Positions 9,408 to 59,130 of a DNA stretch of 64,000 bases are shown one piece after another. Under the pieces are notes generated by a model. It was given only the letters and a program-made list of their open reading frames with translations. It ran no database searches and was not told where the DNA came from. Location: contig JABLWW010000013.1 in NCBI GenBank assembly GCA_013178295.1, positions 1 through 64,000 on the forward strand, written 5' to 3'. Both the position numbers and the translations under genes were made by a program. Within the stretch, counting starts at the first letter, position 1; each line of letters starts with the position of its first letter. This stretch comes from Anaerolineae bacterium (lineage in GTDB: Bacteria; Chloroflexota; Anaerolineae; Anaerolineales; Anaerolineaceae).

Positions 9408-10565
9408 ATGGCAAATCCGCGCAAACGCTTCAGCGCCTTTGAGGATTTTCCTGACGCCACGAAAATCGGAGAGTCAAAGCCGGTAGAAGGCATCCTCTCA
9501 ACCCAGACAAAGCCGGTTGAAACGGCAGCCGTGGAGCGCATCGAACGGCTGAAACCCAGCCAAATGATGCCAGACCGCTTTCAGCCGCGTCATCTCCTGC
9601 CAGCTTCGATCCGCAGCGCCTTCTTTACAGGCAAGATTGACTGCTACGAAGCTGCAAGGCGCTGGATACAGACCGCCCGACAGGATATGGGATACCAGAC
9701 GGAGATTGACAGGCTGGTTGCCATGGGTGACTCGTTTGAAGAGCACGGTCAGATCAAGCCTATTACGGGGTCGTGGGTTGCCGCACAGCAGGGACAGTTT
9801 ATCTTTCTCATCGAAACTGGCGAGCGGCGTTTTTGGGCAGCCTGTTTGCGCCGGGTGATACAGAACCTTGAGGAAGAACCCTTGCTGCGTGTGGAGGTGG
9901 TGGCAAAGCCCAGCCGTCAACGCCAGGTGCTGGAAAATCGCCACGCTGAACCGCCATCAGCAGTGGGACAGGCTTGTGAAATTGCCGCCTTGATCCTGGC
10001 GGAGATGGGTATCCATCCGGACGAAACGACCGCAGATACCTTCGATTATTTCCGCCTGGCGCGCGCCCAGCGGATGCCAGCCGGTCTGTGGGAACAGATC
10101 ACACCCATCATGCAACTGACGCGCCCGCGCATGGTGCAGCTGCTCAATGTGCTGCAACTGCCTACACCCCTGCTGGAACTGGCAGACCGCTACCGGCTGC
10201 CGGAGCGTGTGCTGCGCGAGGTGCTCTCGATGCCGCGCGAACAATGGGAGCGTATGTTACACATCAGTATCCAGCAAAATCTGACATCCAGCGATGTTGC
10301 TGAACTGGGTGAAACGCTCAAACCGCAGGAGAAACAAAGCGCGACAACAACCACGCGCTCATCCCAGCCGCGCTTTCCGGGCAAGACGGCTATCAGCGGG
10401 CTGCGCCGGTTTGCCAATGCGCTCATGGCGCTGGATGAATTCGCCCAGGCACAGGCTCTTGACGAGGTAGCCGACGAGCTGGTCAGCACCGGCGAGGCAG
10501 ACGGTATGAGTTTTTTGTTGGGGGAGCTGGCACACCTGCTGGACGCCCGCCTCAGCCGCCGTTAG
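9408..10565 (+). CDS. parB: ParB-like centromere-binding partition protein
   Basis: 385 residues. Early basic segment (RKRFSAFEDFPDA), then a ParB/Srx-like core with IKPITGSW and GERRFWAACLRR, matching the GERR CTPase motif. A helix-turn-helix region follows (around ITPIMQLTRPRMVQLLNVLQ). The C-terminal helix bundle (ALDEFAQAQALDEVADELVS) may be the dimer domain. The region before the core has an unusual insert (RSAFFTGKIDCYEAARRWIQ). Ribosome site AAGGAGGTACTGAG. It is longer than chromosomal ParB (about 290) and closer to plasmid types. A perfect palindrome starts seven bases after its stop. Confidence 0.8.
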   Translation: MANPRKRFSAFEDFPDATKIGESKPVEGILSTQTKPVETAAVERIERLKPSQMMPDRFQPRHLLPASIRSAFFTGKIDCYEAARRWIQTARQDMGYQTEIDRLVAMGDSFEEHGQIKPITGSWVAAQQGQFIFLIETGERRFWAACLRRVIQNLEEEPLLRVEVVAKPSRQRQVLENRHAEPPSAVGQACEIAALILAEMGIHPDETTADTFDYFRLARAQRMPAGLWEQITPIMQLTRPRMVQLLNVLQLPTPLLELADRYRLPERVLREVLSMPREQWERMLHISIQQNLTSSDVAELGETLKPQEKQSATTTTRSSQPRFPGKTAISGLRRFANALMALDEFAQAQALDEVADELVSTGEADGMSFLLGELAHLLDARLSRR

Positions 10566-10571
10566 GCACGC

Positions 10572-10593
10572 AAGTGTAACCGCGGTTACACTT
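10572..10593. promoter_or_regulatory. 22-bp perfect palindrome after parB, candidate parS or operator
   Basis: The core GTGTAACCGCGGTTACAC (10574-10591) is extended symmetrically by AA and TT. It resembles LacI-type operators in style but is wider, and it does not match chromosomal parS. TTTT follows, so a weak terminator role is an alternative. A 16-of-18 match lies at 15986-16003. Confidence 0.5.
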
Positions 10594-10661
10594 TTGCAAC
10601 CCCTCGTACAAATTTATTCCTCTCTTGAAAGACAACAATATTTGAAGGCATTGTCGGGGTT

Positions 10662-10758
10662 AAGGGGCGACCCTTCTTTTTGTGTAGGGTCGCCCCTTAG
10701 GGTCATCGCTTGACAATTAATGAGGCGACCCTGTATAATTTCAAGGGTCGCCCCTATA
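10662..10758 (+). promoter_or_regulatory. Near-consensus promoter embedded in four GGCGACCC repeats, upstream of parA2
   Basis: TTGACA (10710-10715) and TATAAT (10734-10739), both perfect, are separated by 18 bases. The motif GGGGCGACCCT or its complement occurs at 10662-10674, 10686-10698, 10722-10732 (inside the spacer, lacking one or two G) and 10743-10755 (just after the -10). The first two form a 13-bp inverted repeat. Such a promoter without repression would be very strong, so the repeats are probably operator or centromere sites bound by ParA2 or its small partner. Confidence 0.7.
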
Positions 10759-10796
10759 CACGATTCACTCTTAATTCTTCTTCCATCCTTTCCAAG

Positions 10797-11564
10797 ATGA
10801 AAATCATTTCGTTTGCAAATCAAAAAGGTGGTGTCGGAAAGACCACTTCGGTTGTAACATTGGGCGAAGGGCTGGCAAGACACGGGTTCAAAACGCTCCT
10901 GGTGGATCTCGATCCTCAAGGGCATGTGGGATTCTCCTTTGGGCTGGAAAAGCAGCCCGGGTTGTATCGTCTCATCTGCGCCGAGGAACCTCTGGAGCGT
11001 GTGATTATCAACGCGCGTCCCAATCTTGACATCCTTCCCAGCGACAAGCACACCGAAAAGGTCAAACGGCAAATCACCATTGCCGATTTCCGAGAAACCG
11101 TCCTTCTCGACCACCTGCGTCAAACAACGTACGATGTCATCCTTATTGACATGGCGCCCTCAATGGACGTGCTTCACATCAACGGTTTGTTCGCCAGCGA
11201 CTGGGTGATCATTCCCACCCGGCTGGATGCGATGGCTGTTGACGGCGTGCGTGAAATCCTTTTCACTATGGGAGAGATTGCACGCCAGGGACATGCTTTT
11301 GAGGGCTATACAATTCTCCCTACATTTTTTGATCGCATTACCCGCGAAACGCTGGCACAGATCAAAGACCTGGTAGAGGCGTTCGGCGCCCGCGTTTGGC
11401 CGCCTGTGCCGCAGGATACGCGCGCCCGTGAGGCGGCTGCTTATGGAAAAACGTTATGGGAATACGCCCCTCACTGCAGGGCAATTACCGGCTACCGGGA
11501 GAACCGCCAGTTGCTAGGTGGGTACGCACAAGTGTTGGAAAGATTAATCGAGGTGATCGCATGA
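10797..11564 (+). CDS. ParA/Soj-family partition ATPase (second copy)
   Basis: 255 residues: FANQKGGVGKTTSVVTLGEG (deviant Walker A), LLVDLDPQGHVGFSFGL, VILIDMAPSMD (Walker B), and end motif YAQVLERLIEVIA. It is only distantly similar to the ParA at 8525. Chosen start is the ATG at 10797, because open frame farther upstream runs through the promoter at 10710-10739. No clear Shine-Dalgarno sequence precedes it. The stop overlaps the next ATG, so it is coupled to the small ribbon-helix-helix-like gene, the usual layout of type Ib partition pairs. Confidence 0.88.
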   Translation: MKIISFANQKGGVGKTTSVVTLGEGLARHGFKTLLVDLDPQGHVGFSFGLEKQPGLYRLICAEEPLERVIINARPNLDILPSDKHTEKVKRQITIADFRETVLLDHLRQTTYDVILIDMAPSMDVLHINGLFASDWVIIPTRLDAMAVDGVREILFTMGEIARQGHAFEGYTILPTFFDRITRETLAQIKDLVEAFGARVWPPVPQDTRAREAAAYGKTLWEYAPHCRAITGYRENRQLLGGYAQVLERLIEVIA

Positions 11565-47143: not shown

Positions 47144-47737
47144 TTAAGGTTTTCTATCAAGTCCCTCAAAGAAAAGACTTTCAAGCAGGCATAATATGTG
47201 TTCGGCGTCGTTTTGTTGTTCTGCAAGGGGGCGGGTGAAGAAAGGGTACATGATGCCAAGGAATGCCCATGTGCCAAGGGCTGGAGGGATGTTGCGAAAT
47301 TCGCTGTTCTCGATTCCACTTTGAATCAGAGACTCGATGCGACGGATGAAGCGCGCTTCATACTGCTGCTGGAATTGGCGTCTGACTTCAGGCTGTACTT
47401 TGGCAATATCCTGTGTCGCCAGCCGAATGATCGCCCGGCGATCGGGCGGGATGCGGACCAGAATGGCGCGCATGAGCGCGGAGAGACGGCGGCGTGCGTT
47501 GCCGGGCAGAGCTTCTGCCTCGTCTAACAGGTTGGAGAGTTCTTCTAAATGCTCTTGCAGAATAGCCATAAAGAGGGCTTGTTTGTCCTCAAAGTGATAA
47601 TATAGTGCGGCTTTTGAGAGACCGCACGCCGCGCTGATCTCGCGGATGGAAACGCCATCGTAGCCGCGCTCTGCAAACATCTGAGCGGCAATGTTTAAAA
47701 TTTGTGGGCGCATCTTGACCTCGTTCGACGTTTCCAT
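47144..47737 (-). CDS. TetR-family transcriptional repressor
   Basis: 197 residues. Helix-turn-helix: ILNIAAQMFAERGYDGVSIR then EISAACGLSKAALYYHFEDK. C-terminal ligand domain is of the common helical type, no specific ligand predicted. The ATG at 47737 follows AAAGGAGAAGGCGG. It lies 35 bases after the MFS stop, in one operon; an operator palindrome upstream of the MFS gene probably binds it, so both genes are de-repressed by a drug or metabolite. Confidence 0.92.
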   Translation of the reverse strand: METSNEVKMRPQILNIAAQMFAERGYDGVSIREISAACGLSKAALYYHFEDKQALFMAILQEHLEELSNLLDEAEALPGNARRRLSALMRAILVRIPPDRRAIIRLATQDIAKVQPEVRRQFQQQYEARFIRRIESLIQSGIENSEFRNIPPALGTWAFLGIMYPFFTRPLAEQQNDAEHILCLLESLFFEGLDRKP

Positions 47738-47772
47738 CCGCCTTCTCCTTTGTGTGTTATTGTAATGAGGGC

Positions 47773-49191
47773 TTAGCTTATAGACTGCGCTGTCGCCTGA
47801 TTTGCCCGAATGGTTTCCTGCTCGTTTTGGCGGTTCTTTAAACGCAGTGCCATGAGCATCAGCAAAAAGCTGATGACGGCGATGACCAGAAAGGCAAATG
47901 TGTAACCGGAAGCAGCGCCAACGCCCAGTACCTGCGAGGAAGCCATTGCTCCGGTCAAGGCGCTGCCCAGCAACTGCCCAGCGCTGGTGAAGATGGCAAC
48001 CACGCCTTGCGCAATGGAACGTTCTTCCACACGGGCTTCGTTTAGCATGATATACCTGAGCGGCGCGCCCAGCAGAGCAGACAAACCCAAGCCAATCAGC
48101 GCCGTTGAGAGGATAAACATCGCCAGACTGCCCGCAGACAGCCCGACCAATGCCATCCCGAGCGTTAATAAGAGAGTCCCACTGACAATCACCGTCCGCG
48201 AACCCAAACGATCGAGCAGGCGACCGGAAATCGGTGCCCCGACAGCCATTGCCAGCACCACCGGCAGAAGCATCCACGAGGCGTTTTTCTCGTTGACCCC
48301 TGATTGCGCCAGCGAGACGACCGCCAGCAGCGGCAGGAAAACGAGCGAGGCTTCGGCAAAGCCAGCCCCCGATGAAAGCGCGTACGTCAGCCGTAGCTGT
48401 GGGCGGTCAAACAGCGTTGGCGGGACAATCGGGTTTTGGACGCGCTTTTCGATCCTTTGAAGGATGAGGAATAGGATCAAGGCAGCAGCGAGGAAGGGTA
48501 AAACCCTCATAGAAATGAGGCTGGCAAAGAACGATTGGGCTTCTAAGCGGTTGAACGCCAGTGCCAGACCTGCCAACATGGCAGTCAACACAAGTCCGCC
48601 TGCCCAGTCGAAACGCGCCTCTGCCGCATGGCGGGTGGATGGCAGCAGACGCAGGCTGAGCGCGATCACAAAGAGCGCAACAGGCAGATTGATCAGGAAC
48701 AGCCAATGCCAGGTGGCAAGGGATAAGATGATCCCGCCGAGAATTGGACCGATCAAAAACGCCAGACCAAAAACCGCCCCAATCAAACCCAGCGCGCCGC
48801 CGCGCTTTTCGGGTGGAAAGGTATCGCCGATGACTGCGCTGGCAACCGGGAAAATCCCGCCTGCGCCGAACCCCTGAATGGCGCGCCCCACCAGAATCAC
48901 GCTAAAACTGGGAGAGAGTGCCACAATCAACGATCCGATGGCAAACAGACTGACATCCAGGATATAGATGCTGCGCCGCCCAAATTGATCCGAAAGCTTT
49001 GCCATGAGAGGAGTACCGATCAAGTTGAAAAGGACATAGACGCTGAAAATCCACGCGAGCGCTCGCTCGGATAACTGGTATTGGGAGCGAATCGCGGGTA
49101 ATGCCGGGCCAACGATGGCAATGTCCAGCGCGCCCATCAGCACACCAATAAACAGAACGATGAGGGTAATATTACGTTGTCGGGTTTCCAT
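47773..49191 (-). CDS. MFS drug-efflux transporter of the DHA2 type
   Basis: 472 residues and about 14 membrane helices. Motif A region LSDQFGRRSIYILDVSLFAI, motif MGALDIAIVGPALPAIRSQY and motif C-like GPILGGIILSLATWHWLFLI fit EmrB/QacA efflux pumps. The ATG at 49191 follows GGAGGTCATATC. First gene of the operon with tetR, driven by the promoter and operator at 49211-49269. Confidence 0.92.
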   Translation of the reverse strand: METRQRNITLIVLFIGVLMGALDIAIVGPALPAIRSQYQLSERALAWIFSVYVLFNLIGTPLMAKLSDQFGRRSIYILDVSLFAIGSLIVALSPSFSVILVGRAIQGFGAGGIFPVASAVIGDTFPPEKRGGALGLIGAVFGLAFLIGPILGGIILSLATWHWLFLINLPVALFVIALSLRLLPSTRHAAEARFDWAGGLVLTAMLAGLALAFNRLEAQSFFASLISMRVLPFLAAALILFLILQRIEKRVQNPIVPPTLFDRPQLRLTYALSSGAGFAEASLVFLPLLAVVSLAQSGVNEKNASWMLLPVVLAMAVGAPISGRLLDRLGSRTVIVSGTLLLTLGMALVGLSAGSLAMFILSTALIGLGLSALLGAPLRYIMLNEARVEERSIAQGVVAIFTSAGQLLGSALTGAMASSQVLGVGAASGYTFAFLVIAVISFLLMLMALRLKNRQNEQETIRANQATAQSIS

Positions 49192-49210
49192 GATATGACC
49201 TCCAAATATC

Positions 49211-49269
49211 AAATAAACTTACCGGACGTTCGGTAAGTTTATTTTAATAAACTTTGTCTGTTTTGTCAA
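49211..49269 (-). promoter_or_regulatory. MFS/tetR promoter with overlapping TetR operator
   Basis: Minus strand TTGACA (49264-49269), 17-base spacer, TAAAAT (49241-49246). The operator arms AAATAAACTTACCG (49211-49224) and CGGTAAGTTTATTT (49231-49244) are perfect 14-base complements around six bases with central ACGT. It overlaps the -10, so binding would block transcription. Confidence 0.88.
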
Positions 49270-49405: not shown

Positions 49406-50611
49406 TTATTTGAGCCTGATGCCGGGTTTGCGTCTGTTGTTTGCGGCGCTGCGCGGCGGCGGGGGAGGGGGGCTGAGTTTGATTCTCCCAGCAGGTTTTG
49501 CCGCTTTGGCAAAAGCGGGAGAAAAACGGTGCAGCAGTGTGGGCAGCGCCAGCAGAAGCAGCAGCCCGAGCAGCAGCCCGGCAAACAATCCCCAGGTATT
49601 CTTTTCAGCCACTTCGGGCACCAGCCCGCCGGGGTTGTAAGAGGAGTCGAACTTCTGAGAGGAAGAAGCTGGCTGGGCAGCTTCGCTGGTCAGGGCGATG
49701 GTCAATGAGCGGCGTACGCCGTCGCGCAGGGTGGAAGGCGAGGTGTAAGTCAGGGCATATTCGCTCTGCAGGGCGCGGCTGTAGAGGGCGTAGATATCGT
49801 GCAGGGCGCGATAATCTTTCGCATAGCCATAAAACCCTCCTGCCCGCTGCGCCAGGTCTTTGAGCGCCTTTTCATCAATAGACCACTGTGGGGCGGTGGT
49901 CTGGCTGTACTCACCCAGCCCAACGGTCGAGATGCTCAGCCCGCTGCTGCCGATGTTGTTGATGACGTCATCGGCGCTGTAGCGGCTGCGGTTGTCAATC
50001 CCGTCAGTCAGGACGATGATGGCTTTGCGCCCTTCCAGCGGCTCCAGGATGCGCACGGCTTCGATAAGGGCGTCATACATGGCGGTGTCGCCGCGGGCAC
50101 TGAGGCTGTCCACCGCTTTACTGAGCAGGTCGCGGTCTGTGGTAACCTCCTGCACCAGGCTGACCTGCGTGTGAAAACTGATCAGCCCGGCGCGGTCTTC
50201 GGGGCGCATTTGGGCGATGTATTCCTTCGCCACCTTTTTTGCCGATTCCAGTTTTTGGGCGTGCATCATGCTGCCCGAAACGTCCATGACCAGCAGGGTG
50301 GTCAGCGCGCCAACATCGCCCACGCCCTGTACTGCGCTGGGGTTGATGGCTTTGCCGTTTTCGATGATCTGCAAGCGGCGCGGGTTCACTTTCAGCGGCT
50401 CGCCGTTTGCATCCGTTACCGAAACGTACACCGTGACGCTGGGAAAGTGGGTCGTATCCACCTGGGTGATGTGCACCTGTGGCTGTGCATCTGGCGGCGG
50501 CGTGCCCTGCAGGGGGGCAAAGGCGCTGGTCGCCAGCAGCGCAAGCAGGAGGGATAGGATGATCGGCAACCGAGTGCGCCGCGCCGGAGTAAATGAAAAC
50601 AGTATGTTCAT
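49406..50611 (-). CDS. Membrane vWA-domain protein of the ubiquitin-like operon
   Basis: 401 residues. Signal peptide or anchor (LPIILSLLLALLATSAFA), a beta-rich domain (45-100), a von Willebrand A domain (104-290) with complete MIDAS: D110-V-S112-G-S114, Thr176 (GDTAMYD) and Asp203 (LTDGID), a membrane helix (340-360) and a 40-residue cytoplasmic tail. The tail carries KPAGRIKLS, a proline run and the end RKPGIRLK; similar doubled motifs end the E2 and E1 of this operon. Last gene, four bases after the FHA gene. Binds a metal-dependent partner outside the membrane, role unknown. Confidence 0.85.
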   Translation of the reverse strand: MNILFSFTPARRTRLPIILSLLLALLATSAFAPLQGTPPPDAQPQVHITQVDTTHFPSVTVYVSVTDANGEPLKVNPRRLQIIENGKAINPSAVQGVGDVGALTTLLVMDVSGSMMHAQKLESAKKVAKEYIAQMRPEDRAGLISFHTQVSLVQEVTTDRDLLSKAVDSLSARGDTAMYDALIEAVRILEPLEGRKAIIVLTDGIDNRSRYSADDVINNIGSSGLSISTVGLGEYSQTTAPQWSIDEKALKDLAQRAGGFYGYAKDYRALHDIYALYSRALQSEYALTYTSPSTLRDGVRRSLTIALTSEAAQPASSSQKFDSSYNPGGLVPEVAEKNTWGLFAGLLLGLLLLLALPTLLHRFSPAFAKAAKPAGRIKLSPPPPPPRSAANNRRKPGIRLK

Positions 50612-50615
50612 CGTC

Positions 50616-51473
50616 TTACCTCTTTTCGTGATACACCATCTGCGTATTGCCCATGCGGATGGTCTGCCGGTTGCTCAGGCGGGCGACCTCGATTTTCTTG
50701 TTGTTGATGAATGTGCCGCTGAGGCTCATATCTTTGAGGGTGAAGTGCGATCCATTGCCCTTGAGCATGGCATGTTGCGGGGCGATATCCGGGTCAGGAA
50801 GGACAATATCGGCTTTGAGTGCGCTGCTGCCGATGAACGCCGAGGGTCCATCCGGCTTAAGGAACTTATCCAGGATAAATTCGCTGCCTTTGAGCTTGCC
50901 GGAGGTAACCTCAAGCCAGGCGCGTGAGAGCAAAAAGACGATCAGTGCAATGCACACGCCGGTGGATGCGCCCAGCAGGATCAGACCGGCAGCCTTGCCG
51001 AGCAGTGAGCTTGCCAGTGCCATGCGGGCGGCTTCGAGCAGCAAACCGCCCAGCGTCCCGCCTAAAAAGCCGCCCAGTCCGCCCTTCCACATCTGTGCGC
51101 CGCCTTTGAAAGCCGCCGCCAGCCCGATCAGCAGACCAAAAAGACCCCAACCCAGCGGGCGCAGCCACACCTGCCCGCCGAGAAGCTGGTACATCCCCTC
51201 GGCAATGGGCAGCCCCAGCGCCCCGCCTGCCGCCCCCAGCAGGGCGCTGAAGAGCGCCAGACGCAGGGCGTGCAGCAGGTTGCGCGTGACCAGCCCTTCG
51301 CTGAGACCGATGAGCGCCCCAATGCACAGCCCGATGAGCGCCCCGACAATGATTTCACTCAGATACAAATTGGGTGTGAACGAAAGCCCCAGCAGGTTGC
51401 TTAACTGCCAGCCAAACAGCCCGCCGATTCCGCCCAACACGCCGTAATAGTACAAACGCATCAAACGATTCAT
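50616..51473 (-). CDS. Membrane FHA-domain protein of the ubiquitin-like operon
   Basis: 285 residues. The first 190 are glycine-rich and membrane-embedded (about six helices, such as LGGFLGGTLGGLLLEAARMA). The FHA domain (about 205-285) contains FIGSSALKADIVLPDPDIAP, QHAMLKG, LKDMSLSGTFINNKKI and TIRMGNTQMVYHE, with the GS, S/H-type and N residues that read phosphothreonine. Kinase partner not in this operon (the kinase at 94-2028 is 48 kb away). Three bases after the JAB gene. Confidence 0.87.
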   Translation of the reverse strand: MNRLMRLYYYGVLGGIGGLFGWQLSNLLGLSFTPNLYLSEIIVGALIGLCIGALIGLSEGLVTRNLLHALRLALFSALLGAAGGALGLPIAEGMYQLLGGQVWLRPLGWGLFGLLIGLAAAFKGGAQMWKGGLGGFLGGTLGGLLLEAARMALASSLLGKAAGLILLGASTGVCIALIVFLLSRAWLEVTSGKLKGSEFILDKFLKPDGPSAFIGSSALKADIVLPDPDIAPQHAMLKGNGSHFTLKDMSLSGTFINNKKIEVARLSNRQTIRMGNTQMVYHEKR

Positions 51474-51476
51474 GGG

Positions 51477-52130
51477 TTACATTTCTCCTTCTGCCGATCC
51501 GGGAGCTTGCACAGGCAGCAGGTTGCTCCAGTGCACCACGCTGCGCTTTTTTACCCGGTGGAGCAGTTCGTAAAAGCCATAGTAGCGGCGCTGATCAAGG
51601 GCGCCGTTTGCCTGGCGGATGAAAAAGCCGCCGCTTTTGCTGTGTGGTTCCATCACCAGCGCTACCTGCCATGGCTCCGGAAAGAAGTTGTTGTGCAGCC
51701 AGGCGTCCCACATCGAAAAAAAGATGCCCATGCGCGGGTGGGTGTGATACCAGCCGAGGATGCGTTTTTGCGCATCTTCCTCTTGCAGCCGATCGTGAAG
51801 CGCCAGCATACTTTCTGGGGTGAAGGTGATATATGCCGCACCGTTGTTGACATGCTGGGCGGGGATGGCTGTCTCAATCACGATGAACTGCTGGTCGGTT
51901 TGCGGGTCGCGGCACCATTTGCCAGCCAGCCAGCCGCCCACCTCGTTTTCCAGGTCAGAGCCAGCAGACGCGCACAGGCGGATATAGGCGCGCTGGGTTA
52001 CAAAGACGGGCATGGGCGGGTCTTCTTCTTCCCATGCGGGCTTCCATGCCAGCGCGCGCCGGTATGGAATGCGCGCCGGGTGCGGGGCAGGCGTTTCGCC
52101 AGCGGTGAGACGAACCAGGCTGGGTTGCAT
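51477..52130 (-). CDS. JAB/MPN+ (JAMM) peptidase of the ubiquitin-like operon
   Basis: 217 residues. Complete JAMM zinc motif: Glu63 (ENEVGGWLAG) and H129-x-H131-P-x6-S139-x2-D142 (GWYHTHPRMGIFFSMWDAW). Expected to remove or process Ubl from targets, like deubiquitinases such as Rpn11. The free Ubl already ends at its glycine, so recycling is likelier than maturation. The first 40 residues are Pro/Arg-rich and atypical. Starts two bases after the Ubl stop, hence coupled translation. Confidence 0.92.
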   Translation of the reverse strand: MQPSLVRLTAGETPAPHPARIPYRRALAWKPAWEEEDPPMPVFVTQRAYIRLCASAGSDLENEVGGWLAGKWCRDPQTDQQFIVIETAIPAQHVNNGAAYITFTPESMLALHDRLQEEDAQKRILGWYHTHPRMGIFFSMWDAWLHNNFFPEPWQVALVMEPHSKSGGFFIRQANGALDQRRYYGFYELLHRVKKRSVVHWSNLLPVQAPGSAEGEM

Positions 52131-52132
52131 GA

Positions 52133-52399
52133 TTATCCGGCGGTGATATCAGCGGTGATCATCAGACGGTCTTCAGCAGGCACACCGGCAGCTTCCAGCG
52201 TCTCATTTTCCTGCAATTCCCTGCCAAGCGCTTTGCTATCCAGGCGGTAGCTGATCGGTCGCCCGTCAGGACCGGTGGTGGGCAGCTGCAGCGAGGTGGT
52301 CAGTTCGGGGATGAGTTCGGCAATCGGCACGTCGCCGGGAATTTCTGCGGTGCGGCTTCCGCCGGAAGGAAGGACGAGGGTTACATTTTTGTCGGACAT
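52133..52399 (-). CDS. Ubiquitin-like modifier protein (YukD-like fold)
   Basis: 88 residues: VTLVLPSGGSRTAEIPGDVP, LIPELTTSLQLPT, and ALGRELQENETLEAAGVPAE leading to DRLMITADITAG. Beta-grasp pattern with a short terminal Gly (ITAG) instead of GG. Sixty of 83 aligned positions match the N-terminal domain of the E2 fusion at 52463. Likely activated by the E1 and transferred by the E2 of this operon to unknown targets. AAAGGAG precedes the ATG. No WXG100 or EccC gene is nearby, so an ESX role is unlikely. Confidence 0.88.
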   Translation of the reverse strand: MSDKNVTLVLPSGGSRTAEIPGDVPIAELIPELTTSLQLPTTGPDGRPISYRLDSKALGRELQENETLEAAGVPAEDRLMITADITAG

Positions 52400-52462
52400 T
52401 TTGGTGACTCCTTTTTTGAAACTGGTTGGGTCGAATTTTTCTATCCAATTTGAAAGAGCGCT

Positions 52463-53305
52463 CTATTTGAGTTTGACGCGCGGCTTGTTCTGCGCTGGGG
52501 GAGCGATTTTGACCCGCTCCGGGCGCAGCAGCTCGCGCCGGTCTACTGGAAAGATATCGGGGTACTGCATCCGGTAGGCGCGGCACCAGCGCGCAGCCTC
52601 CGGATCCCATGGGAAGGGTGGTTTGGTGGGGTCGTCGTGAAAATTTTTGTATTGTAGCATCTCGCCCAGCATGATCACCAGCCGGTCTAAACTGCGGCTG
52701 GCTGCCCACCAGGCGGCGTCAATGCACACGCTGCCGTTGAGGTGGTTGATGTTGGGATGCCAGATGGGGGTAAGCCACTTCATCCCAGGCCAGCGTTGCG
52801 GATACTGGCTGTGGAGATAAATTTCCACCTGATGATGCTCGCCGTATTTTGGTTTTCCGCTGCGCTCCACGCCGATGATGCTTTTGCACTTAAATGTGAT
52901 GATATAGCGTTCGGGGGGCAGCCCGGGGCGTGCGGATTCGGCTTTGACCTGGATCAGGTCGCTGCGGGCGGCAAGTTCCTGCATCAGCTGGTGGTCGGCA
53001 CGCAGACGGCGCATGCGCGGGCTTTGGTCGAGCGGCGTGGCTCCGGCGGTGATGTCGGCGGTGATCATCAGCCGGTCGTCGCGCGGCACGCCTGCCTGGG
53101 CGAGGGTCTCGTTCTCGGTCAGCTCACGCCCCAGCGCTTTGCTGTCCAGACGGTAGCCCATCGGACGCCCGTCCGGCCCAACCGTAGGAAGCTGAAGCAG
53201 CGAAGCCAGTTCTTCGATGAGGTCGCGGACGGCGACGTCATCGGGCATCTCTGCCCGGCGCGCCCCGCCGTTGGGTAAAATGATGGTGACAGGTATTTCG
53301 GGCAT
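52463..53305 (-). CDS. Fusion of ubiquitin-like domain and E2 (UBC) enzyme
   Basis: 280 residues from ATG 53305 behind GGAGATACG. Residues 1-88 are a Ubl ending DITAG but continuing directly, so not free. Residues 105-245 form a UBC domain: LMQELAARSDLIQVKAESA, VEIYLHSQYPQRWPGMKWLT, TPIWHPNIN with the HPN motif (183-185), and GSVCIDAAWW with candidate catalytic Cys194. The usual W after the Cys is kept. Tail RPERVKI then KPRVKLK. The cis Ubl could load, mask or template the E2. It ends 63 bases before the free Ubl gene. Confidence 0.92.
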   Translation of the reverse strand: MPEIPVTIILPNGGARRAEMPDDVAVRDLIEELASLLQLPTVGPDGRPMGYRLDSKALGRELTENETLAQAGVPRDDRLMITADITAGATPLDQSPRMRRLRADHQLMQELAARSDLIQVKAESARPGLPPERYIITFKCKSIIGVERSGKPKYGEHHQVEIYLHSQYPQRWPGMKWLTPIWHPNINHLNGSVCIDAAWWAASRSLDRLVIMLGEMLQYKNFHDDPTKPPFPWDPEAARWCRAYRMQYPDIFPVDRRELLRPERVKIAPPAQNKPRVKLK

Positions 53306-53318
53306 ACGTATCTCCAAT

Positions 53319-54290
53319 TCACTCGTGATTGTGCGGCACCTGGCAGGCGCCGGTGATATCCCAGCAATCCTGGTGGTGATGTGCGCCGCAGATGGCGCAG
53401 ACTACATCGCCGCGCGGGTCATCGGGCAGTACCAGGTCGAGACAGTAGGGGCAGCGGTGTTCTTCCATGCCCAGCAGCTGCACGGTGGCGTTTTTGTGGT
53501 GCCGCTGCCGGGCGGGTTGAACGGATAGCGGCTTTTGCACCGCGGAGCGGATGCGCAGCGCAGCCTGAGGCGGGGTTGGCGCAAGGGGAGTAGAGTTCCG
53601 CCGCAAGGGGGATGGCGGGGCTGGCACGCGGGCAGGTGCCGGGGAAGACGAACGCCGGGCAGCCGGGGCAGGCGCCGAGCGAAAAACACGCTGCACAAAA
53701 GCCGACAGCTGGGTAAATGGACTCTGCAATTCATGCACAAACGCGGCCGTGTTGCGCAGCGCCGTCTTCCAGGCGCGTGTGCACCCGCTGCGCCGCGACT
53801 TTGGCGGGCGGGATGCCCGCCGCCGTGTTGAGCGCCGGATGCGCATCCCGCTCCAGGCGAACAGCGGCAGGCAAACCGCAGCCCCGCCCAGCGCAAGCTG
53901 CCACAGGCTGTGCCAGTCGGGGGCAGAGGTATTGGCGCGCAGCAGCGCAATTCCCATAAACCCCTGGCTCCAGATGCCCAGCACCGCCAGAATTGCCAGC
54001 AGTGTGCCGAGCGCGGTCATCAGTCGCAGCAAGGGGACACTGCCCCGCAACAGCCAGCGGGCAGAAAAACCTGCTGCCAGACCGATGGCGGCGATGGATA
54101 TCGCTTTGAACAGCAGGGGGTGAAGCGCCGTGCGGCGTGAGAAGAGCAGCACAAAAGCGCCCGCCGCAGCAGCGGTAAAAATCACCACCAGCAGCATACG
54201 GCTGAAAAGATCGGAGATGCTGCTCCACGTGGTGGGTTTGCGTTTGCGTTTTCTCGGTGTGCTGTGTACTGACATGGTTAGCGTGGTCAT
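53319..54290 (-). CDS. Membrane-anchored prokaryotic RING-type protein (candidate E3)
   Basis: 323 residues. Four membrane helices (about 32-50, 58-78, 85-106, 128-146), a basic Pro/Arg/Ser-rich cytoplasmic stretch, and a C-terminal zinc domain: C280-PY-C283, C298-AI-C301, His304-306, C309-W, C316 and H320. The order C-x2-C-x14-C-x2-C-x4-H-x2-C with trailing Cys and His fits prokaryotic RING/treble-clef families. It could hold the E2 at the membrane beside the FHA and vWA proteins. Seven bases after the E1 stop. Confidence 0.82.
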   Translation of the reverse strand: MTTLTMSVHSTPRKRKRKPTTWSSISDLFSRMLLVVIFTAAAAGAFVLLFSRRTALHPLLFKAISIAAIGLAAGFSARWLLRGSVPLLRLMTALGTLLAILAVLGIWSQGFMGIALLRANTSAPDWHSLWQLALGGAAVCLPLFAWSGMRIRRSTRRRASRPPKSRRSGCTRAWKTALRNTAAFVHELQSPFTQLSAFVQRVFRSAPAPAARRSSSPAPARVPAPPSPLRRNSTPLAPTPPQAALRIRSAVQKPLSVQPARQRHHKNATVQLLGMEEHRCPYCLDLVLPDDPRGDVVCAICGAHHHQDCWDITGACQVPHNHE

Positions 54291-54296
54291 GGAAGC

Positions 54297-55964
54297 CTAA
54301 TCTTTGAGCAGCGAGATGCGCCCGCGGGTGATTTTTTCGGCAGGGCGCACACGCAGCGGAACATTCTGCAGAGGAACATCATCCACCAGACGGATAGCCG
54401 CGCGGCGTTCGGCCTTTTCGGGTGGTGTGGTCTTCTCAAAGCTGCGGAAGTGCAGTGTCTCGGGTAGGTCACCGCTCAGCTCGTAAAAGCGGTACTCGCT
54501 GGCGTTGCAGGCGCGCAGGATGTGCAGCGGCGGCACGCCCACGCTGGCGAGGGTAAGGTGAAGAAAAGCCTCCTCGCCGGTGATGATATGGGTCATATCA
54601 ATCTCGCGCAGCGTGCCGCAGGTGGGGCAGTGGGCGGCTTTGAAGCTCATCTCGCCAATGGGGCGCATGACGCCTTCCATCGTTTTGCATTCCGGGCATT
54701 TGAGGTTGAGGATCAGTTCCTGATCCAATTCGATGATTGCATCATTCCCTAGATCGCTGCGCACAATGCGCATCATTTCAGCCAAAGTGGTCACGCTGGC
54801 GCGGGCGGGTAATTCGCGCACCTCGCCGTATATCCAATGGCTTTCGCAGTCTTCGCGCGGCTGGTAGGCGGTGGTGTGCATGTCGTTGGTCAGCCCATTG
54901 ACGTGCACCACCTTGCCCGCCTCAACCGGCATGGCGTGGATGAGTTTGAGTGCCTCCTGCGCCTGCATGGCGCCGATGATCGAGGCGATGGTGGGGGTGG
55001 TGGGCACTTTGCCCATCAGGACGTTTTCGCGCGCCAGCAGCGGACAGGAATAGCGCAGCGAGAGGTCGCGGCGTGCCTGCTCGGTGAGCGTGCACTCAAA
55101 GCAGGCGCCCTGACCGGGGACAAAGACGCGCATCAGACCCAGAAATTCTTGAATGGCGCCGTCCACCCAGGGCTTGTTCATCCAGTAAGCAAAACGGTTG
55201 ACTGCCAGGCGCGCCTCACGGTTATCCAGACAGCCGACGATGACATCCATGCGGCGGAAGACCCCCAGCCCAAGCTGGCTGGTTACGTCGCCGTGAAAGT
55301 ACTGCACCTTGACCGCCGGATTGAGCTCCTTGACGCGGGCGGCAGCCATCTCGGCTTTGCGCCTGCCCGAGTCGCTCTCGCGGAAGAGCACCGAGCGGCT
55401 GAGATTTGCCATCTCGATGGTATCGAAATCAACGATGAAGAGATGCCCGACGCCCATCAGCGCCAGGTTTTTGATGACCTCGTTGCCCAGCGCCCCGGCA
55501 CCAACCACCATAACCTTTGCCGCTTCGACCTTTTCGCGCTCCCACCAGGAGATGAGACGGAAGGTGCCCAGCCGGTCAGTACGCAGATTGGGGATGTGCA
55601 GCGGTTTTTCAGGCGCAGCGGGCAGACGGCGCGGTCCGGTGGGCGGTTCGCCAGCCGCGGGGCGCGGCGGGGCAGGTGTTTCTTCGCGCGCCGTCCCGGC
55701 AAGCTCGTGCAGGCGGGCAACGTTTTCCTCGTCCACCGAACAGACAAACCACCCTACGCCCTGGCGTCCGTCAATCACGCCGCTGTCGGCGAGCAGTTTG
55801 AGCGCCTCACGCAGCGTTGAGCGGCTGATGCCGAACTGCCTTACCAGCACCCGCTCGGCAGGCAGCTGGCTGCCAGGGGCAAAGGTATGGTCGAGGATGG
55901 AAGCCGCCAGTTTTCCGGCGACAATATCGGAGAGCGACTTGCGGGAGATAAAATTGATCGTCAT
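54297..55964 (-). CDS. E1-like ubiquitin-activating enzyme with N-terminal GntR DNA-binding domain
   Basis: 555 residues. Residues 8-76 are a GntR winged helix (FGISRSTLREALKLLADSGV). A Pro-rich linker leads to the E1/ThiF core: VMVVGAGALGNEVIKNLALM, Asp179/181 (VDFDTIEMANLSRS), Lys203, CLDNREAR (Asp247), Cys291 (FECTL) and candidate catalytic Cys307 (YSCPLL), placed as in MoeB/Uba4, then TIASIIGAMQAQEALKLIH. Zinc pairs C423/C426 and C446/C449 follow. Tail RPAEKIT then GRISLLKD. AGGTG precedes the ATG. It heads the operon and probably both activates Ubl and binds the palindrome at its own promoter. Confidence 0.9.
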   Translation of the reverse strand: MTINFISRKSLSDIVAGKLAASILDHTFAPGSQLPAERVLVRQFGISRSTLREALKLLADSGVIDGRQGVGWFVCSVDEENVARLHELAGTAREETPAPPRPAAGEPPTGPRRLPAAPEKPLHIPNLRTDRLGTFRLISWWEREKVEAAKVMVVGAGALGNEVIKNLALMGVGHLFIVDFDTIEMANLSRSVLFRESDSGRRKAEMAAARVKELNPAVKVQYFHGDVTSQLGLGVFRRMDVIVGCLDNREARLAVNRFAYWMNKPWVDGAIQEFLGLMRVFVPGQGACFECTLTEQARRDLSLRYSCPLLARENVLMGKVPTTPTIASIIGAMQAQEALKLIHAMPVEAGKVVHVNGLTNDMHTTAYQPREDCESHWIYGEVRELPARASVTTLAEMMRIVRSDLGNDAIIELDQELILNLKCPECKTMEGVMRPIGEMSFKAAHCPTCGTLREIDMTHIITGEEAFLHLTLASVGVPPLHILRACNASEYRFYELSGDLPETLHFRSFEKTTPPEKAERRAAIRLVDDVPLQNVPLRVRPAEKITRGRISLLKD

Positions 55965-56129
55965 CGAATCACACCTGTTGTATGTTGGTCAGACCACTAC
56001 ACAATACAGTGTAATCCGTTTGCGCCGCGAGTCAATAGGCGTTTTGCGTATTTTTGGGGGGAGGCTGCGTTTTGGAGCGGGGTGATCCGCCGATTTGGCT
56101 GCAAAACCCGACGGTGGGGGCTGTACCCT
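55965..56129. other. Gap between amidohydrolase and E1 operon
   Basis: 165 bases: the operator and promoter above, then TTGCGCCGCGAGTC and GC-rich sequence with no gene. The amidohydrolase transcript ends here without a clear terminator, so partial read-through into the E1 operon is possible. Confidence 0.4.
55986..55996. promoter_or_regulatory. GntR-type operator before the E1 gene
   Basis: TGGTCAGACCA is a perfect palindrome with one central base, 22 bases before the ATG and matching the TGGT-x3-ACCA style of FadR-like GntR sites. On the minus strand TTGTGT and TACAAC flank it at 16-base spacing, a weak promoter that would be covered by the site. Confidence 0.65.
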
Positions 56130-57406: not shown

Positions 57407-58249
57407 TTAACCCTGTTCGTTCAATAGCATTGTCTGAAAAACGAGAAAATCCCCGTTCAATGGGTGCTTGAAGCAGATCGTTTCGAATGCTTCAGGCACA
57501 TTTTCTTCTTTGCCCACAGATTGGAATTGCTCTAATAATTGTTCCCGGTTGCCATGTAGAGGTAAAATAAGGTTGAGTGAGTTTTCCTTGATCTGGGGGT
57601 ATCTTCGAGAGTCGAGAATATTCGCCTGTGCTTTGACCTCTGTCATAATCCTAAATCGAAGTTTGACAGATGCATTAGGAACATCGCGAACCCTGCGAAA
57701 ATAATCCTGCCGACTCAGTAGTTCAGTTAACTTTTGCTGAACCTCTTCTGAGAGGTGCTCGCCTGAGGTCATTAACCCCTCTTCCAGAACTTGGGCAAAT
57801 GACTGCTGTATCAAGTTTTTGATTTGGACAGTTTCGAAAAAACTTCCATGAACCAAACAAACTTTGACACAGCCTGACTTTCTGCCTCGTACCAAATAGA
57901 ACACTTGTCTTTCAGGTAAATCTTCAGGATTCTCTCCTTTTTCCCGCATTTGTTTGTAAATAAGACTGTTTGTGTTAACAATGATATCCGTGGTCTTCTT
58001 TCTACTGCTCGGAATGGTGGAGTTAAAAGAGGCGACGGAGTAAGTCTTGCTATCTTTGAGTTCTATCAACTCTCCGCCGCTATATGTCTCTCCTTGTTTG
58101 GAGATGCGAATCGCGAGGTCTGGAAAAACCCCTTTATTCCTGCAAGATAATAAACGCTCGTCAAAAGGGAAATTATCTAGGTGATCAACACGAACAAATT
58201 CGCTTTTTGTTTTCACCAGAGAAAAAAAGAAATGGTAAATGGAAGACAT
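57407..58249 (-). CDS. Restriction endonuclease-like protein with PD-(D/E)xK motif
   Basis: 280 residues. FPDLAIRISKQGETYSGGEL then IELKDSK provide Asp44, Glu63 and Lys65 in the order PD-x18-E-x-K. The rest (TSGEHLSEEVQQKLTELLSR, VKLRFRIMTEVKAQ, PQIKENSLNLILPL) is not recognised by family. Function is inferred from the motif and from the adjacent methyltransferase (11 bases upstream). No Shine-Dalgarno sequence seen. AT-richer than the window average, as transferred R-M systems often are. Confidence 0.75.
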   Translation of the reverse strand: MSSIYHFFFSLVKTKSEFVRVDHLDNFPFDERLLSCRNKGVFPDLAIRISKQGETYSGGELIELKDSKTYSVASFNSTIPSSRKKTTDIIVNTNSLIYKQMREKGENPEDLPERQVFYLVRGRKSGCVKVCLVHGSFFETVQIKNLIQQSFAQVLEEGLMTSGEHLSEEVQQKLTELLSRQDYFRRVRDVPNASVKLRFRIMTEVKAQANILDSRRYPQIKENSLNLILPLHGNREQLLEQFQSVGKEENVPEAFETICFKHPLNGDFLVFQTMLLNEQG

Positions 58250-58260
58250 CAGAATTTAGC

Positions 58261-59130
58261 TTATAAAAAGGAGGGTTGTTTGATCTTAATCTTCCCCATT
58301 GAAACGGCAATCGTTTTTCCCCATATTCTGTCCAGGTTGTGGGTGTAAAGATAGTCTTTATAGTATGTATTAACGTTATCCGCTTCCCGTTGGTTTTCCA
58401 GCCTATCCCGAATGCACTCCACATTTTCCGGGCTCTTCTCAATTCCAATTGCGTTGCGGCTCAGTTGTTCTGCGGCAACTAGAGTCGTTCCTGTTCCTGC
58501 AAACGGGTCTAAAATCCAATCGCCTGGCATTGTCGAAGAGAGAATGATGCGTAGGAGAAGTTGGATAGGGGATTGTTGTTTATGAAAACGTTCGCCTTTT
58601 GCATTTCTTATCGCTTCATCACCGGCAAAGTACCCGGAGGTTAACTCTCGAATGTCATCCCACACATCAGTAACGTACATTCCCTCGCTGCGTTCCATTT
58701 TGTAATTGGGCGGTAAAGGGGGGTCTATCCGTAAGCGGTTAAACAATCTTGGCTTCCTGCCTTTTATCGCAAAGGCAATGATTTGATAGTGTTTACCAAA
58801 TTTGTTGATGTTTGGAACCGCAGAGGTTTTCTTTTTCCAGATAATCAGATTTTGTAAATTCCACCCAGATCTTCGCAAGCAGCTTAAGACATACTCTGTA
58901 TTTTTTTCACGCTGCATGAAATACAAAGCCCCACCCTCTGAGGTCAGGAGATGTACCTTTTGGCAAATTTCTTCCATCCATTGCCAATATAAAGACTCTG
59001 GAAGATGATCGTTATGATTATGATATTCCTTTCCTTGATTAAAAGGGGGATCCAAAAAGGTGAGATCTACTGAAACGGTCAGACTGCTCAGTAGTTCAGA
59101 ACAATCACCGCATAGGATTTGGTAAGTCAT
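58261..59130 (-). CDS. Type II DNA methyltransferase (N4-cytosine/N6-adenine, beta-type order)
   Basis: 289 residues. Catalytic motif IV DPPF at 27-30 comes first, and SAM motif I DPFAGTGTTLVAA (208-220) comes later, the permuted beta order. EGGALYFMQREKNTEYVLSC and FHKQQSPIQLLLRIILSST are typical neighbouring elements. Should protect the site cut by the next gene's nuclease; target unknown. Operon: methyltransferase, nuclease, nucleotidyltransferase, perhaps amidohydrolase. Confidence 0.92.
   Translation of the reverse strand: MTYQILCGDCSELLSSLTVSVDLTFLDPPFNQGKEYHNHNDHLPESLYWQWMEEICQKVHLLTSEGGALYFMQREKNTEYVLSCLRRSGWNLQNLIIWKKKTSAVPNINKFGKHYQIIAFAIKGRKPRLFNRLRIDPPLPPNYKMERSEGMYVTDVWDDIRELTSGYFAGDEAIRNAKGERFHKQQSPIQLLLRIILSSTMPGDWILDPFAGTGTTLVAAEQLSRNAIGIEKSPENVECIRDRLENQREADNVNTYYKDYLYTHNLDRIWGKTIAVSMGKIKIKQPSFL

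Follow-up and report, generated by a model that had tools for sequence, protein, structure and literature searches.

Bacterial pathways that would attach ubiquitin-like proteins (Ubls) to targets through E1 activating enzymes, E2 conjugating enzymes and RING-type E3 ligases have been proposed before: in 2011 Burroughs, Iyer and Aravind reportedly put forward that YukD-like Ubls are conjugated with RING partners, and tri-ligase systems are therefore not new as a kind. According to the part of it used here, a 2014 survey found no complete ubiquitin toolkit in any bacterial genome that it covered (PMC4327156), and systems of E1, RING, Ubl-E2 and JAB peptidase are already predicted in print (PMC7159879, which we take to be Kaur et al., 2020). 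As described in the available portion of PMC7159879, these systems have EAD1-Ubl-E2 proteins, MoxR, FtsH, a caspase-like effector and, usually, a beta-propeller vWA protein; their separate JAB, E1 and RING genes, their Ubl-E2 fusion and their vWA partner are traits shared by the locus considered here. The latter also resembles the operon of Caldiarchaeum subterraneum, which encodes ubiquitin, E1, E2, a small RING protein and a JAMM peptidase, according to excerpts of PMC5654768. It lies in Anaerolineae bacterium GCA_013178295.1, in positions 1-64,000 of contig JABLWW010000013.1 (this whole stretch of 64,000 nucleotides is the window), where positions 49406-55964 of the minus strand carry a seven-gene operon that probably specifies a Ubl conjugation pathway at the inner membrane face with its own feedback control.

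Between 55964 and 49406 seven open reading frames (ORFs) follow one another leftward on one strand with spacings of 1-63 bases, and Pfam searches place them in the order E1, RING, Ubl-E2, Ubl, JAB, FHA and vWA. The first-pass annotation of this DNA had claimed a same-strand, seven-gene Ubl conjugation operon at this place, with a complete E1-E2-RING-Ubl-JAB set and intact catalytic motifs. All of the ORFs and Pfam domains were confirmed and the catalytic residues proved invariant across relatives; the gaps it gave as 2-63 bases were close, the lower bound being 1. A Ubl-E2 search of genome contigs returned 84 relatives, of which the best 80 (68-79% identity) were kept as loci, with titles that name Chloroflexi/Chloroflexota, Anaerolineae and lower groups within. 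The seven-gene set, its order and its strand are kept in 52 of the 52 loci with room for it. The neighbourhood is thus conserved across Chloroflexota, a check that the same annotation had called for, and given this synteny the association of the seven genes is not a matter of chance. The genes and their domains are the following.

54297 to 55964, minus strand: E1-like activating enzyme with an N-terminal GntR domain, 555 amino acids, C307 the probable catalytic cysteine (Pfam, model, conservation)
55743 to 55928, minus strand: GntR winged-helix domain of the E1, residues 13-74 (Pfam, E 3.2e-17)
54843 to 55559, minus strand: ThiF/E1 adenylation domain, residues 136-374 (Pfam, E 1.6e-57)
53319 to 54290, minus strand: membrane RING-like protein, 323 amino acids, start perhaps at the inner ATG 54275 (Pfam, ligands, hydropathy)
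53331 to 53453, minus strand: RING zinc domain, C-x2-C...C-x2-C...H..C...C...H (eight ligands in 89 of 89 rows)
52463 to 53305, minus strand: Ubl-E2 fusion, with Cys198 and HPN (H187, N189) of the E2 numbered from TTG 53317 (Pfam, PDB, conservation)
53042 to 53305, minus strand: Ubl domain of the fusion, ending TAG, with a possible JAB cut between 53042 and 53041 (TAG followed by A, G or S)
52133 to 52399, minus strand: free YukD-type Ubl, 88 amino acids, ending ITAG (Pfam, conservation)
51477 to 52130, minus strand: JAB/JAMM peptidase, E63, H129, H131, S139, D142 (Pfam, conservation)
50616 to 51473, minus strand: membrane protein with a C-terminal FHA domain that lacks the phosphothreonine residues (Pfam, residues, hydropathy)
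49406 to 50611, minus strand: vWA protein with a signal or anchor, a metal-ion-dependent adhesion site (MIDAS) domain, a C-terminal hydrophobic segment and a basic tail (Pfam, conservation, hydropathy)

The catalytic parts are conserved throughout, with counts given over full-length ORF rows within set length limits, the window counted and a few duplicate genomes included. In Pfam the E1 has a single ThiF domain plus GntR, and the second, inactive adenylation domain typical of Bil is not present. The best PDB matches of its profile are eukaryotic E1s (UBA7, Uba1), its model aligns with canonical E1s up to residues 498-499 (9dqb_B: 297 residues, root-mean-square deviation 3.9, Z 26.9), and its nucleotide-binding residues and C307 are invariant in 79 of 79 rows. 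The fusion matches YukD (4.4e-10) and UQ_con (6.4e-11), the free Ubl YukD (9.7e-11) and the peptidase Prok-JAB (1.1e-8). Since conservation starts at ATG 53305, this is a likelier start for the Ubl-E2 protein than TTG 53317. Its Ubl part is ubiquitin-like in the model, with Caldiarchaeum ubiquitin as the first structural match, and the PDB matches listed for the E2 profile are E2s, UBE2K first. H187-P188-N189 and C198 are invariant in 78 of 78 rows, and the residues after C198, IDAAWWAASRSLD, contain no E/H/H at the BilB spacing. The JAB residues E63, H129, H131, S139 and D142 are likewise invariant (72/72). Prok-RING_1 scores slightly below its curated cut-off (4.9e-6, 26.8 bits against 29.1, for one sequence), but the eight Cys/His ligands, in treble-clef order, are kept in every one of 89 rows, which secures the assignment despite the weak score. 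These are the eight zinc ligands of a RING E3, and ligase activity with the E2 is predicted. With E1, E2, RING, JAB and Ubl together and the E2 fused to a Ubl, the locus belongs among the prokaryotic tri-ligase Ubl systems, for which conjugation is the predicted activity.

The free Ubl ends in TAG in 75 of 76 rows, one carrying one extra residue. TAG is likewise kept by 77 of 78 fused copies, the exception (L089) having a badly placed start. The residue after the fused TAG is A in 45 rows, G in 19, S in 12 and K in 1, and the linker beyond it is variable. JAMM cleaves pro-ubiquitin and a linear Ub-GFP fusion in Caldiarchaeum (PMC5654768, in part), and release of a Ubl by JAB is proposed for related tri-ligase systems in the portion of PMC7159879 used here. 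On these grounds processing of the TAG junction by JAB is predicted, and by analogy a second Ubl is probably freed from the Ubl-E2 protein. Concerted evolution of the two Ubls was considered and rejected, the within-locus identity of 72.0% being close to the cross-locus identity of free and fused copies (70.6%). Free-free (80.5%) and fused-fused (75.8%) identities both exceed the within-locus value, and an old duplication has therefore been kept apart. Two of the loci (L078, L084) have two JAB-like stretches between the Ubl and FHA genes.

Just upstream of the E1 gene are a candidate operator and promoter.

55978 to 56004, minus strand: GntR/FadR-type operator with weaker outer arms TTGT/ACAA (pattern and score scans)
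55986 to 55996, minus strand: operator core TGGTCTGACCA (pattern and score scans)
56008 to 56035, minus strand: promoter-like boxes, -35 TTGACT (56035-56030) and -10 TACACT (56013-56008), 9 of 12 matches, weak here

Operators of the TGGT-N3-ACCA type go with GntR (FadR-like) regulators. The best regulator match in the PDB for the first 74 residues of the E1 is PdhR (5kvr), and E37, R38, R48, R52 and G71 of this head are kept in 79 of 79 rows. Seven duplicate pairs occur among the upstream regions, and the counts below are over 72 distinct ones, the window's included. Within 150 bases before the E1 start, TNGTN3ACNA occurs in 61 of them (shuffle mean 2.6, maximum 8), TGGTN3ACCA in 58 (shuffle mean 0.13) and TTGA-N15-21-TAtAnT boxes in 45 (0.5 shuffled). 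Alignment gives the consensus tntggtntanTGGTCTGACCAncAtACCAca. Nine or more of the 11 core positions match within 60 bases in 66 regions, where the site ends 13-35 bases before the start codon, and within 75 bases in 68. A 19-base form, TGGTCNGACCANNATACCA, was sought with up to two mismatches in 24 genomes, 12 with the system and 12 without. It is present at the operon in all 12 of the former (ten with at most one mismatch, two with two), no site with at most one mismatch occurs in the latter, and in the source genome the sole matches at up to two mismatches are the two strands of the operon site. Exactly three of 79 E1 rows (L078, L079, L081) have the wing QAARGTF, the others carrying forms like RPGVGWF, and it is the regions of the same three loci that score lowest for the operator, at 6-7 of 11; L014, at 8, is the one further region below 9. 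An N-terminal winged helix facing an operator of this type characterizes the GntR (FadR-like) class, and binding of the one to the other is predicted. The E1 probably represses its own operon, much as BirA does. The latter is a biotin ligase and repressor that sets the supply for biotin; in it an adenylating ligase carries a winged helix and shuts down its own pathway, as is predicted for the E1, although ligase and substrate are unrelated. No text on a GntR-headed E1 or its operator was found in the open-licence literature searched by listings.

Further operator copies stand upstream of lipoprotein genes in three relatives (G016, G032, G028), a hint of a link to the envelope. Such copies lie before lipoprotein-like genes at about 3684-3710 in L097, 3864-3890 in L098, 3982-4000 in L100 and 3978-4004 in L099; three of these genes belong to a family of about 245 amino acids and the fourth to a different one. 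Second sites as a general regulon were dropped, as they were seen in just 3 of the 12 genomes with the system.

How the operon is distributed and conserved bears on its role. The GntR-headed E1 occurs in 12 of 61 near relatives, the source genome counted, and the other 11 copies are 67-71% identical to it. A Ubl-E2 profile matches 14 of 400 genomes of the phylum, ten with the fusion and two (G201, G423) with separate Ubl and E2; the remaining matches are an E2 alone (G274) and a Ubl-like stretch alone (G379). Relatives are also carried by named strains, Leptolinea tardivitalis YMTK-2 and Pelolinea submarina MO-CFX1. In eight loci that also carry nusG, rplK, rplA and rplJ, the median pairwise identity of the Ubl is 88.6%, against 90.1% for L11, and those of E1 (79.3%) and Ubl-E2 (78.9%) compare with 78.2% for L1, 71.3% for L10 and 80.9% for NusG; FHA stands at 77.2%, JAB at 58.8%, vWA at 55.3% and RING at 44.2%. 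The chemistry is therefore fixed, and most interaction parts drift. The operon directly follows nusG/rplK/rplA/rplJ in up to 18 of the 80 loci (e.g., L026, L031). A gene that appears LexA-like by eye lies downstream in 21 loci, such as L024, and further conservation in the flanks is confined to gene groups common to at most 21 of the 80 loci.

Hydropathy predicts three membrane segments in the RING protein of the window, four in the FHA protein, two in the vWA protein and none in the other four. As far as hydropathy can tell, this supports the membrane proteins of the first-pass annotation. The FHA (5.9e-13) and VWA_2 (5.7e-16) domains are clear in Pfam, and the MIDAS residues of the latter are invariant in 66 of 66 rows. 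FHA domains bind phosphothreonine through GR, SxxH and N(GT) residues. In the present protein GS replaces GR, and the arginine is missing from all 73 rows. The SRxH position lacks serine in 67 of these and the NGT position lacks asparagine in 69; G215, S216, Q233, H234, G253 and T254 of the former phosphate face are kept in all 73. Because the arginine is missing throughout, the phospho-reading suggested by the same annotation is unsupported. Basic flanks suggest that the vWA protein has its domain outside and its tail in the cytoplasm, where the RING and FHA domains would also lie.

A short basic motif recurs in the flexible ends of several of these proteins, as judged from the sequence and the tails of relatives.

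54300 to 54326, minus strand: E1 C-terminal motif RGRISLLKD
52466 to 52492, minus strand: E2 C-terminal motif NKPRVKLK
49409 to 49498, minus strand: vWA tail, containing GRIKL and a less exact PGIRLK

Written as [RK][IV][RKHTQSN][LIFMV], the motif is found in 68 of 69 E1 tails (10.6 when shuffled), 66 of 67 Ubl-E2 tails (10.8), 61 of 65 vWA tails (3.9) and 24 of 74 JAB N-termini (2.0), and a looser [IV]x[LF] immediately precedes the RING in 68 of 78 (11.5). Only 6 of 228 background ORFs (200 kb of the source genome plus the window) have the motif in their last 12 residues; two of the six are the E1 and E2, and the window's vWA protein is not among them. Among relatives, the corresponding counts are 62/84 for E1, 61/79 for Ubl-E2 and 51/67 for vWA. 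The mean net charge is -8 for the Ubl, whereas the tails are basic, at +4 (E1), +5 (RING), +7 (vWA) and +8 (E2), with +1.4 for the JAB head. The motif resembles SUMO-interacting motifs (SIMs), and as such would let every partner hold the Ubl; its docking partner is most likely the acidic Ubl, in a SIM-like manner, or the FHA domain, a candidate because its former phosphate face is conserved although the arginine is gone. The idea that the E2 tail docks on the Ubl of its own protein was entertained and dropped, as the AlphaFold2 model does not show it and gives the tail a pLDDT below 50.

The observed gene set, its conservation, the operator, the shared motif and the loss of the FHA residues are consistent with the following model. 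The E1 would adenylate the C-terminal glycine of the acidic, TAG-ending Ubl, which would be handed from C307 of the E1 to C198 of the E2 and steered by the membrane-anchored RING protein onto membrane or envelope-associated targets. JAB would strip the Ubl again and would probably release the second Ubl from the Ubl-E2 protein. The vWA protein, as an outer sensor domain with an inner tail, and the FHA protein, inside and no phospho-reader, may form a membrane platform, and the basic motif of the E1, E2 and vWA tails, of some JABs and, loosely, of the segment before the RING could dock the parts to a common partner. The GntR head of the E1 is predicted to repress the operon by binding the operator, which closely follows the -10 box; the enzyme that starts the cascade would then also set its own supply, comparable to BirA for biotin. 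The more complete version, in which a two-job E1 reads its own charging state in the BirA manner, two modifiers are used and one SIM-like motif joins E1, E2, RING, JAB and vWA in conjugation at the membrane, is put forward tentatively.

If the operon were instead an anti-phage defence of the Bil, Bub or CBASS kind, with phage proteins tagged, one could understand why PADLOC finds its E1-E2 models (best 1.3e-19) and BilD (2.5e-7) in the E1 and, weakly, its JAB models (best 1.4e-5) in JAB, and why a DNA methylase (N6_N4_Mtase, 1.1e-42) with a Pfam-less partner ORF lies nearby (57407-59130); patchy presence also keeps this reading alive. However, RING, Ubl-E2, Ubl, FHA and vWA have no PADLOC match, the ribosomal-level identities of the Ubl (as L11) and of E1 and E2 (as L1 and NusG) are not those of an arms race, the nusG/rpl genes adjoin the operon in the loci mentioned, and a pattern scan of viral contigs left none of 43 candidates confirmed, all of which makes defence unlikely. 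A viral origin was set aside on the same scan. In PHROGs, the E1 and vWA proteins match unnamed families, with one weak HNH-labelled match for vWA, and the other five have none. E1/E2/RING cascades usually lead to proteolysis, and the Ubl might on that precedent mark membrane proteins for FtsH, Clp or Lon. This outcome, too, is doubtful: among 31 genomes, the source included, 30 have no proteasome-family (PF00227) match (G028 has one), no Pup ligase occurs in any of 30, the PafA/Dop and 20S proteasome of a Pup-proteasome system are absent from the source genome as well, and JAB is the only protease or AAA+ protein among the seven genes, FtsH, Clp and Lon not having been searched for. In favour of degradation, a related Ubl system with Pup is described for ‘Thermofonsia’ in the available part of PMC7159879.

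It could also be that nothing is conjugated, with a YukD-type Ubl that helps to assemble a secretion complex of type VII-like nature or a membrane complex, and an E1 and E2 that are relics. Iyer 2006 places YukD with ESAT-6 export (PMC1779556, in the portion at hand). The Ubl is indeed in the YukD family of Pfam; B. subtilis YukD is not conjugated (from the same portion); and WXG100 matches occur in 5 of 11 genomes with the system versus 1 of 9 without (3/11 versus 1/9 above cut-off). Yet every tested catalytic residue is invariant, the terminal glycine is conserved and the source genome has no WXG100 match, in the cluster or elsewhere; we regard this explanation as highly improbable. Within the cluster, Pfam shows no EccC-type ATPase, for which no genome-wide search was made. 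Alternatively, conjugation is real, but the GntR head regulates genes other than these, or some unlinked GntR protein uses the operator. The extra sites before lipoprotein genes would suit either version, but the confinement of sites with at most one mismatch to genomes with the system among the 24 searched, the lack of any other site with up to two mismatches in the source genome and the joint change of wing and operator render it quite improbable. Given the near-ribosomal conservation of the core and the nusG/rpl neighbourhood, regulation at the membrane appears a likelier role than degradation or defence.

Several observations count against a self-controlled conjugation pathway at the membrane. 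Its spread is patchy (12 of 61 near relatives for this E1, 10 of 400 phylum genomes for the fusion), the Ubl ends in a single glycine instead of GG, and the unconjugated YukD of B. subtilis is a precedent to the contrary. The strict motif is not enriched in RING linkers (8/81, 4.6 shuffled), and the AlphaFold2 model of the Ubl-E2 protein is of middling quality (pLDDT 71.9) with a disordered tail. The strict operator pattern is absent from 11 of 72 upstream regions and the scored one from 4; at up to two mismatches TGGTCNGACCANNATACCA gives 57 matches in the 24 genomes against 69 for a reversed control, so two-mismatch sites elsewhere are meaningless; and the three wing variants may represent one evolutionary event or lineage. 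The motif expressions and the operator pattern were, moreover, picked after inspection of the data, which makes their shuffle counts descriptive, and the shuffles ignore relatedness. Should the conjugation model hold, this would be a bacterial Ubl pathway with ribosomal-level conservation of its core (in eight loci) and without a proteasome or Pup ligase, and would show uses of such tagging beyond degradation and immunity. Through the GntR-E1 and its operator, the control of a ubiquitin-type pathway would become experimentally accessible.

Elsewhere in the window, inspection by eye suggests a Ser/Thr kinase-like ORF (94-2043), adjoining ParB- and ParA-like ORFs (9408-11564) and, downstream of the operon, TetR-like and MFS transporter ORFs (47144-49212) with a good promoter match, TTGACA-17-TAAAAT. 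The methylase at 57407-59130 and its neighbouring ORF of 280 amino acids, genes three and four upstream of the operon, look like a restriction-modification pair.

Among the systems compared, that of G201 and G423 (same class; loci L139 and L140) is simpler, with an E1 55-56% and an E2 45-47% identical and with JAB shared. It has a YukD-type Ubl, ending TAG in L139, and two Prok-RING proteins adjoin in L140; its E1, of 393 amino acids, is without GntR head or long tail, its E2 is unfused and its JABs are two, as in L078 and L084. The stretches fetched show no BLAST match to either the FHA or the vWA protein. The GntR head, the Ubl-E2 fusion, FHA, vWA and the tails may thus be later additions, or may have been lost in G201 and G423. 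By eye, an ORF beside the simpler system (L139 6345-6992; L140 5994-6542) has three stretches like LQITAEDI, LTIRPEDV and LLITSEDV, perhaps another short docking motif, and a RING protein of L140 has SIRITASDI.

BilABCD similarly has E1, E2, Ubl and JAB in a single operon, to our knowledge without RING. BilD has an extra inactive adenylation domain and BilB a CEHH motif (PMC11354881, in part), unlike the window proteins. The Caldiarchaeum E2 is self-modified on a C-terminal lysine, and the ubiquitin there starts as a precursor and ends GG, with no GntR, FHA or vWA in the part of PMC5654768 used. The components of FtsH ternary conflict systems (MoxR, FtsH, EAD1-Ubl and an effector) were sought in the seven genes and in four ORFs upstream of them, and none is present in that stretch. 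The first-pass annotation saw the novelty in the exact make-up, an overstatement, since tri-ligase systems with Ubl-E2, RING, JAB and vWA are in print (PMC7159879, in the portion available). It also missed that the E1 carries a GntR head, that an operator lies before it, that the Ubl-E2 protein has a TAG junction and that a short motif is shared. Relative to the systems of PMC7159879, as far as that portion describes them, the operon has no EAD1-Ubl-E2, MoxR, FtsH, caspase-like effector or beta-propeller vWA among its seven genes, and adds a second, free Ubl, a GntR-E1, a membrane FHA protein, a membrane vWA protein and the shared tail motifs.

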